Origin: Deefgea salmonis
GTDB taxonomy: Bacteria > Pseudomonadota > Gammaproteobacteria > Burkholderiales > Chitinibacteraceae
Assembly: GCF_020531905.1 (NCBI RefSeq)
Contig: NZ_JAJAWG010000001.1
Location: forward strand, 248,001-312,000
Direction: 5' to 3'
DNA: 64,000 nt
The number at the start of each line of letters is the position of its first letter. Positions within the stretch are counted from its first letter, which is position 1. Position numbers and translations under genes: made by a program. A model generated the notes under the pieces. The model made no database searches and was not told the DNA's origin. It saw only the letters and a program-made list of their open reading frames with translations. Of the stretch, positions 19,342 through 51,843 are shown one piece after another.

Positions 19342-19466
19342 GCCGAGATTGGACTTGGCACGGATAGCGGACTTGGGTTGACGGTCAGCCATTTCAGACC
19401 GATTGGTGAGTCAAAAAGTTTGATCTAGTGCCGCACCGCGCCTGCGCTGAGACGGTACAATAGCCA

Positions 19467-19597
19467 CAGACTCGGGGTGCCGTGAGGGTCTGTTGATGTT
19501 TGGTTTGCTAACAGGGAAATCCAACGTCAGCAGGTCGAGACCGGCTGAGAGAAACCCGTTGTACCTGATCCAGATCATACTGGCGTAGGGATGTCTG
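19467..19597 (+). promoter_or_regulatory. TPP (thiamine pyrophosphate) riboswitch with an enlarged P3 arm
   Basis: All core elements are present: P1 strands CAGAC/GTCTG (19467-19471, 19593-19597), CTCGGGGTGCC (19471-19481), GGCTGAGA (19543-19550), ACCCGTT, ACCTGATC and ACTGGCGTAGGGA. Ligand binding hides the thiM start and/or ends transcription, shutting the thi salvage operon when thiamine is plentiful. The P3 arm is replaced by about 60 bases (19482-19542) that fold as a long hairpin and resemble dispersed hairpins elsewhere in the window (see findings). A TACAAT -10-like box at 19456-19461 lies six bases upstream. Confidence 0.96.
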
Positions 19598-19638
19598 CTG
19601 CGACTTGGCGACTTCCTGCGCTTTACAAGGAAATCGCG

Positions 19639-20475
19639 ATGTCTCAAGTTGATCTTACAATTGCTGAACTGCCATTTCATTTAGTTGCCGATGAGCTAGA
19701 ACGCTTACGCGCTAATACCCCCCTAGTGCATGTGCTGACCAACGAGGTTGTACAATGCTTTACTGCCAATACCCTACTTGCCATTGGCGCTTCGCCAGCG
19801 ATGATTGTGGCCGAAGCAGAGGTCGCTGATTTTGCGGCGATTGCCGATGCGCTGCTGATCAATATCGGCACCGTTTACCCAGCCCGACTCCAAGCGATGA
19901 ACTTAGCGATTGATGCCGCTAACGCCGCAGCCACGCCGTGGGTGCTCGATCCGGTGGCGGTTGGCGTATTGCAATACCGCCGCGATGCAGCGCTTGCGAT
20001 GTTGGCTAAAAAACCAGCGGCAATTCGCGGCAATGGCTCAGAGATTTTGGCTTTGGCCGCCGCATTGGCTTTAAATGCTGAGGCGACGACGGGCGGGAAA
20101 GGCGTTGATAGCACGATGAGCTCAATGTCAGCACTCAGCGCCGCGCAGCAATTGGCGCGCGCCACTGGCGCGATTGTTGCCGTGACGGGTGCGACCGATT
20201 ACATCACCGATGGCGAGCAAACATGGGCGGTGCCGTGGGGCCACCCAATGATGACGCGCGTGGTGGGAACGGGTTGTGCGTTGTCGGCCGTGGTGGCGGC
20301 CTTTTTGGCCGACGCGCCCAATCGACTCAATGCCGTGGCCGCAGCCTGCGCGGTGATGGCGATTGCTGGCGAGCGAGCGGTAGAGTGCTCTGATGGTCCG
20401 GGGACATTTGTTGCGCCATTTTTAGACGCTTTACACGTAATTCATCCAGTGCAATTACGGAGCTATAGCCAATGA
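19639..20475 (+). CDS. thiM: Hydroxyethylthiazole kinase
   Basis: Phosphorylates the salvaged thiazole moiety 4-methyl-5-(2-hydroxyethyl)thiazole. 278 residues, ribokinase-like fold. Motifs include LVHVLTNEVVQCFTANTLLA, WVLDPVAVG, the RGNGSEI segment and the catalytic anion hole GTGCALSAVVAAFL. ATG 19639 follows an AAGG RBS; the longer frame from 19591 begins inside the riboswitch. Overlaps thiE by 4 bases. Confidence 0.96.
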   Translation: MSQVDLTIAELPFHLVADELERLRANTPLVHVLTNEVVQCFTANTLLAIGASPAMIVAEAEVADFAAIADALLINIGTVYPARLQAMNLAIDAANAAATPWVLDPVAVGVLQYRRDAALAMLAKKPAAIRGNGSEILALAAALALNAEATTGGKGVDSTMSSMSALSAAQQLARATGAIVAVTGATDYITDGEQTWAVPWGHPMMTRVVGTGCALSAVVAAFLADAPNRLNAVAAACAVMAIAGERAVECSDGPGTFVAPFLDALHVIHPVQLRSYSQ

Positions 20476-29955: not shown

Positions 29956-30022
29956 AACCGGGTTTTACCGGCTTAAAATTGACTCAGTTGGGAGCTTGTC
30001 ACCGATTTGGCTCAATCGACTC

Positions 30023-30063
30023 AGGGTTTGCTGGCTTTGCTCAGGCAGATGCCAACAGACCCT
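30023..30063. repeat. Imperfect hairpin upstream of dut, related to hairpins at 19487 and 51742
   Basis: Arms AGGGTTTGCTGGC (30023-30035) and GCCAACAGACCCT (30051-30063), 11 of 13 paired plus G-U pairs. Read on the minus strand the right arm is AGGGTCTGTTGGC, sharing AGGGTCTGTTG with the TPP riboswitch P3 arm. It lies 37 bases upstream of dut. Confidence 0.6.
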
Positions 30064-30100
30064 AGGTCATTATTTAATTTAAATGTTTTTAGGAAATACT

Positions 30101-51679: not shown

Positions 51680-51740
51680 AAAGGGTATTGCTTGGTAGTC
51701 ATGATCATTCATGCACTACAAAGCAATACCCTTATTACTT
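51680..51740. repeat. Large hairpin downstream of bioB
   Basis: Arms AAGGGTATTGCTTGGTAGT (51681-51699) and ACTACAAAGCAATACCCTT (51715-51733), 18 of 19 paired, with a nested CATGA/TCATG in the loop. No T run follows, so it is not a simple terminator. Just upstream, 51653-51673 forms another GC stem (TTGCGGCGC / GCGCCGCAA) followed by A residues. Confidence 0.8.
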
Positions 51741-51741
51741 A

Positions 51742-51804
51742 GGTCTGTTGACGTTTGGTTCTCCGCCGCGCAAACGCGGCTGGCAAACCAAACGTCTACA
51801 GACT
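51742..51804. repeat. Large hairpin with GTCTGTTGACGTTTGG arm
   Basis: Arms 51742-51760 and 51786-51804 pair at 17 of 19 positions, with an inner perfect stem GCCGCG / CGCGGC around AAA-type loop (51764-51780). The left arm is 18/19 identical to the TPP riboswitch P3 segment at 19487-19505. Confidence 0.85.
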
Positions 51805-51843
51805 CTAGCGCCACCGTGATTGCGGCGAGATCGACTCTAGTGT

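Follow-up and report, generated by a model that had tools for sequence, protein, structure and literature searches.

A putative MITE-derived arm in the P3 stem of the thiM TPP riboswitch of four Deefgea species

Introduction

Riboswitches differ widely in the length of their peripheral stems, though to our knowledge the origin of the extra sequence that these contain is rarely known. Intervening sequences in rRNA are cut out of the RNA. One such sequence, in helix 45 of the Coxiella 23S rRNA, is described as a selfish element within the helix of a structured RNA, and in this respect it resembles the case presented here, from which it differs in being 428 nt long and in residing in rRNA (PMC4990558). 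The nearest precedent that we found is a BOX element, a small dispersed repeat that is co-transcribed in the riboswitch leader upstream of pneumococcal trp, where the switch, as the authors of that study inferred from RNA-seq, apparently works; the BOX repeat, however, lies between two T-box riboswitches, whereas the Deefgea repeat lies inside the stem of a single aptamer (PMC3049150). A review of MITEs that cites the BOX case treats the formation of riboswitches by such elements as conceivable, and it describes the Correia elements, MITEs of Neisseria, as short sequences in many copies with terminal inverted repeats, at which the transcripts that bear them are cut by RNase III (PMC10969869). 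By that description, the Correia elements are similar to the element considered below.

In the TPP riboswitch, P3 is a known variable stem, for which an average of about 150 nt and a maximum of 172 nt are given in fungi (PMC11683625). What sets the present locus apart from other TPP riboswitches of the class RF00059 is that the source of its P3 extension can be named, namely a dispersed element of which this genome contains many copies; the same holds for the clade concerned, for the loop in which the element plausibly landed and for the ordinary P3 of the sister species. The locus lies in a 64,000-nucleotide stretch of the Deefgea salmonis genome (contig NZ_JAJAWG010000001.1, positions 248,001 to 312,000), hereafter the window. 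Very probably, a short copy of a MITE-like element inserted once into the P3 loop of the thiM riboswitch and was tolerated there as a peripheral arm, the switch itself being retained. The riboswitch class is a known one, and the novelty, which is well supported, is the MITE-like hairpin inserted in its stem and the placement of this event on one branch. The open-licence literature, searched mostly at listing level, yielded no previous description of a riboswitch stem that contains a MITE, and among the listed papers that mention Deefgea none concerned repeats by its title.

Results and Discussion

The thiM riboswitch and its P3 arm

The leader of thiM is assigned to RF00059 because its score exceeds the gathering score and because a thiamin gene lies downstream, preceded by what is plausibly the expression platform (Table 1); the two ORFs after thiM we take, from their protein sequences, to be thiE and thiD. 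In the predicted fold, the original P3 stem is formed by GCCG at 19479-19482 and CGGC at 19542-19545, and the insert that it encloses is bounded by GGTGCCGT on its 5' side and by ACCGGCTGAGA on its 3' side. An earlier note on this DNA had described the P3 as overlong and folded into a hairpin, and so it is: 57 nt of the P3 stretch are unmodelled in the RF00059 alignment, and the arm pairs with itself in the predicted fold.

Table 1. Positions in the window of the thiM riboswitch, its P3 arm and the related hairpins.
Feature	Position	Strand	Basis
TPP riboswitch aptamer (RF00059), thiM leader	19463-19608	+	Rfam, 61.7 bits against a gathering score of 54.3; MFE fold
Original P3, 5' side (GGTGCCGT)	19476-19483	+	Read from the sequence and the fold
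P3 insert, putative MITE-derived short hairpin	19484-19539 (~56 nt)	+	Alignment, covariance model
Original P3, 3' side, and GGCTGAGA core motif	19540-19551	+	Sequence
Hairpin pairing the SD region (19608-19617 with 19628-19637), likely expression platform	19608-19637	+	Predicted fold
thiM, downstream gene	19639-20475	+	Name from the earlier note and read from the sequence
Third copy, a degenerate short hairpin 5' of a dut-like gene	30022-30064	-	Weak match (20.1 bits; E 0.01, searched over the window)
Second copy, a short hairpin 3' of bioB (so named in the earlier note)	51740-51807	+	62.3 bits, but part of the 12-hairpin model

Seven Deefgea genomes, one per species, were compared. The P3 arm is present in four of them, which are referred to as carriers: G000, the window's own genome of 3.26 Mb, and G002, G004 and G005. 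The remaining three, D. chitinilytica (G001), D. rivuli (G003) and G006, have short, ordinary P3s, and the comparison revealed no species in which the same P3 occurs independently of the repeat.

In two of the carriers, G004 and G005, an extra element-like hairpin is located immediately 5' of the thiM leader (L036:1689-1761 on the minus strand, 25.8 bits, and L075:483-555 on the minus strand, 17.6 bits).

Conservation and folding of the riboswitch core

An insert of this size could have damaged or altered the switch, such that thiM in these species would no longer be normally regulated by TPP. At their thiM loci the carriers indeed score only 61.5-64.9 bits against RF00059, compared with 68.5-70.7 bits for the non-carriers, and the minimum free energy (MFE) fold of the G004 leader is non-canonical. 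However, a lower score is to be expected from the insertion itself, and the leaders of two non-carriers, G001 and G006, also have non-canonical MFE folds. Moreover, the four carrier species are identical in 94-96 of 97 nt outside P3, while inside it only 40-55 of 60-63 nt agree, and the conservation of the core alongside a diverged P3 suggests that the core is still under selection. A damaged switch is therefore unlikely.

Since other folds are predicted for the leaders of G004, G001 and G006, folding provides only a partial test. The MFE folds of the G000, G002 and G005 leaders show the standard aptamer, with the arm extending P3 and with the SD-region hairpin, and when the flanks of the G005 insert are joined, the same fold is predicted minus the arm. 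The claim of the earlier note that the ligand-binding core was left undisturbed agrees with the near identity of the core and with the folds predicted for these three of the carrier leaders. Under the proposed insertion, P1, P2, P4, P5, the binding loops and the RBS-hiding hairpin would have retained their pairing, and with this pairing kept, TPP binding and translational repression of thiM most likely persist.

The changes that the arm has undergone were also compared with those in 36 other copies of the element. In the arm, all seven distinct single-sided transitions retain pairing and five transversions break pairs, and one pair is altered on both sides in G005. In the other copies, 14 transitions keep pairing and 10 break it, changes on both sides keep pairing in six cases and break it in one, and 27 transversions break it. 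For the transitions, the difference between the arm and the other copies corresponds to a one-sided Fisher p of 0.044, in which each riboswitch change was counted once and the control changes were counted per copy, one locus contributing two overlapping control rows. The riboswitch arms were set in an ungapped register for these counts; in the alignment, a single gap falls within the right arm for both G000 and G002. As the copies are related, the two sets were counted differently and only four riboswitch sequences contribute, pairing-preserving drift in the arm is suggestive only.

It is conceivable, if rather unlikely, that the captured hairpin now contributes to the working of the riboswitch and is kept paired by selection, so that the end of a transposon would serve as an exapted domain of a metabolite sensor. 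Such an arm could perhaps allow the aptamer to fold faster, support the contact between P3 and L5 that is formed in the TPP riboswitch, or provide a site of RNase cleavage. The locus was put forward in the earlier note as a case of repeat-driven riboswitch evolution, which is fair as a description of its history.

The arm as a copy of a dispersed element

Both sides of the insert resemble the ends of a dispersed element. The left arm (19485-19512) is identical in 26 of 28 nt to the left end of the long form, with the match continuing beyond the palindrome for about 6 nt, into the GCCAAC of the element (GCTAAC in the riboswitch), and the right arm (19515-19533) agrees with the element's right end in 17 of 20 columns, one column being a gap. 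The identity of 18 of 19 nt between the left arm and the bioB copy (51742-51760), with which the resemblance had first been noticed, was reproduced. When the P3 insert was locally aligned with the 23-nt terminal repeat of the element, none of 2000 shuffles reached the observed score in any of the four carriers, and the thiM P3s of the three non-carriers matched the repeat at background level.

A covariance model was built from 12 short hairpins, with the riboswitch copies excluded and the bioB copy included. Over its own whole genome, this model found the thiM arm with 39.2 bits (E 9.8e-6), and the G002 arm was found in the corresponding genome search with 32 bits (E 6.0e-4). In these genome-wide searches, 150 of about 2,100-2,600 candidates were scored per genome, and the arms of G004 and G005 are absent among the matches listed. 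Applied to 14 TPP loci, the model detected the arm in all four carriers (39.2, 32, 28.3 and 22.8 bits), and the rest of the set, three thiM and seven thiC loci, gave no match with an E of 1 or less. A similar separation was obtained with 46 P3 sequences of the family, these being the fetched TPP loci that were caught by an aptamer pattern, with L076, L077 and L110 left out: the weaker of the two arms scores 22-30 in the four carriers and at most 12 in the other 42, and the stronger arm scores 32-40 in the carriers and up to 20 in the others. The long P3s of other genera (L102, L132, L133 and L134) gave no two-arm match to the element.

Alternatively, P3 might have been lengthened by ordinary indels and have converged by chance on a hairpin that looks like the repeat. 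Long P3s free of the repeat do exist, as shown by the P3 of the thiC TPP riboswitch, which measures 70-82 nt in all seven Deefgea species (L032:1501-1629, L039-L044) and is single-copy in the window's own genome, and P3 length is reported to vary widely across the TPP class (PMC11683625). Yet chance would have to account for a match that no shuffle attained in any carrier and that involves both arms, for the near identity of the left arm to the long element where the 42 other P3s remain at background on the weaker arm, and for the significant detection of the arm by a model that contained no riboswitch copy. This makes convergence very improbable, and judging from these alignments and model searches, the P3 arm is best regarded as a short form of the MITE-like element.

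A MITE-like element

The 17-mer GGTCTGTTGNYGTTTGG has 19 zero-mismatch sites genome-wide, the thiM and bioB copies among them. A near-identical pattern, allowing at most one mismatch, has 27+20 sites in the window's own genome, against 0+0 for the reversed control; with up to three mismatches, the whole genome contains 87+92 sites against 40+52 in the control. Within the window, GGTCTGTTGRYRTTTGG with up to three mismatches gives six matches where 1.04 are expected, a number that none of 100 shuffles reached; the bioB copy accounts for two of these matches, one in each arm.

Facing pairs of end sites are common, at a spacing of 246-262 bp. Among 20 distinct paired copies, obtained from 22 aligned rows in which two elements were present twice, 16 have 263-279 bp between the end 17-mers and the other four are shorter. 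The full form comprises about 264 bp and has the ends TAGGGTCTGTTGACGTTTGGTTT ... AAACCAAACGTCAACAGACCCTA, the second being the reverse complement of the first. In the short forms, which measure about 54-76 bp, both ends are preserved and the middle is missing. At one site, a 279-bp copy in G000 corresponds to a 63-bp copy in G004 with matching flanks (L002 G000:C3 and L066 G004:C1), and CCGCGC occurs at both borders of the stretch that is missing from the shorter copy. The presence of a long and a short copy at one site implies that this short hairpin arose from the long element by deletion, or that the change ran the other way.

The earlier note had grouped the thiM, bioB and dut hairpins into one family. 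Searches with the covariance model and with sequence patterns found many further copies in the genome, and the relationship of the thiM and bioB hairpins stands; the third hairpin is a weak match, and the unit of repetition turned out to be an element with a long form rather than the hairpin. It is short, has near-identical terminal inverted repeats, occurs in many dispersed copies and is present or absent at given sites among relatives, and by these features it is better termed a MITE-like element than a hairpin family.

At one mismatch or less, the ends of the element are present in 16 of the 43 genomes of the family, although some of these are single sites and probably due to chance, and in a draw of 300 genomes from the order they are present in six, including two of Deefgea. 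That the P3 hairpin was itself the source, from which the dispersed elements spread outward, would explain the homology of arm and repeats but is barely credible, since the element also occurs in the three Deefgea species without the arm and in other genera, and since its full form is of about 264 bp and has ends much nearer the consensus. A genome from another family of the order (G259, L155) has its own version of the end, AGGGTCTGTTGACGTTTCG, and contains one facing pair at a spacing of about 249 bp.

The termini of the element usually read TA...TA, with one end sometimes deviating. A search for a DDE_3 transposase found none in the seven Deefgea genomes, and two widely spaced pairs of ends in G002 enclose ORFs that, by eye, are unlike transposases. 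An Rfam scan of 60 loci, most of them element copies with their surroundings, detected no structured RNA overlapping a copy besides the TPP arm; three tRNAs are close to element copies, none overlapping.

The other two copies in the window

The copy downstream of bioB is missing in all three sister species compared (G002, G004 and G005), in which the flanks are directly joined. These empty sites read GC where a TA target would be expected, and duplication of a TA target is therefore unproven. In this, and in that no parent transposase was found (DDE_3, seven genomes), the Deefgea element may differ from the Correia elements. The copy beside the presumed dut-like gene, so named from its protein sequence, is present in the four carriers, although part of its right arm is gone in G004, and nothing corresponding to it occurs in the three non-carriers. 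With the bioB copy absent from the three sister species compared and the thiM and dut copies common to four genomes, the copies in the window seem to span recent to older insertions.

Directly before the bioB copy, at 51682-51735, lies another strong hairpin (AAGGGTATTGCTTGGTAG...CTACAAAGCAATACCCTT), which is conserved in three sister species and parts of which match elsewhere in Deefgea genomes.

Phylogenetic placement and proposed origin of the arm

In thiM trees with Chitinibacter and Iodobacter as outgroups, made without the Jeongeupia locus L108, the carriers form one clade, with support of 100/99 for DNA and 93/97 for protein. A tree of the thiM neighbourhood, midpoint-rooted and without an outgroup, gives the same split of the carriers at 100/100. 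The thiC tree joins G000 with G005 (93/98) and G002 with G004 (98/97) in an open fork with G003 and G006, leaving the four carriers ungrouped, and it neither supports nor excludes a carrier clade. Together with the two-arm match in the four carriers and the short P3s at background level in the three non-carriers, the single clade bears out the proposal that a repeat element was absorbed into P3.

Of the carriers, G005 and G004 alone have an intact TA at each end of the insert. When the flanks of the G005 insert are joined, they read GCCG-TTAGAC-CGGC, a P3 of 4 bp with a 6-nt loop that is much like the Iodobacter P3 GCCGTAAGTGAATACGGC. Since all four members of the carrier clade have the insert and none retains an empty P3 site, we infer this pre-insertion sequence.

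Thus reconstructed, the event would have begun with a short, internally deleted copy of the element, which inserted once, presumably by transposition, into the apical loop of the thiM P3 in the common ancestor of the four species; the order in which the short and long forms arrived is likewise presumed. The two ends being self-complementary, the insert would fold on itself and so lengthen the old 4-bp P3 by about 14-17 bp. This suggests a rule, namely that an inverted-repeat element landing in the loop of a hairpin merely lengthens the hairpin, and structured RNAs could thereby absorb such elements while retaining their core.

In two Chitinibacter records, L106 and L107, no TPP aptamer was detected 5' of thiM by the aptamer pattern. 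The six genomes of group g4, which are probably Chitinibacter, have one TPP match each, located before thiC.

The long P3 of the thiC riboswitch was considered as a second captured hairpin and rejected, as a two-arm match to the element is absent in all seven Deefgea species and as this P3 is not repeated in the window's own genome. Six of the seven Deefgea thiC riboswitches lie below the Rfam cut-off. The right side of the thiC P3, taken alone, resembles the element in G004 and G002, where 8 and 22 of 2000 shuffles, respectively, reach the observed score.
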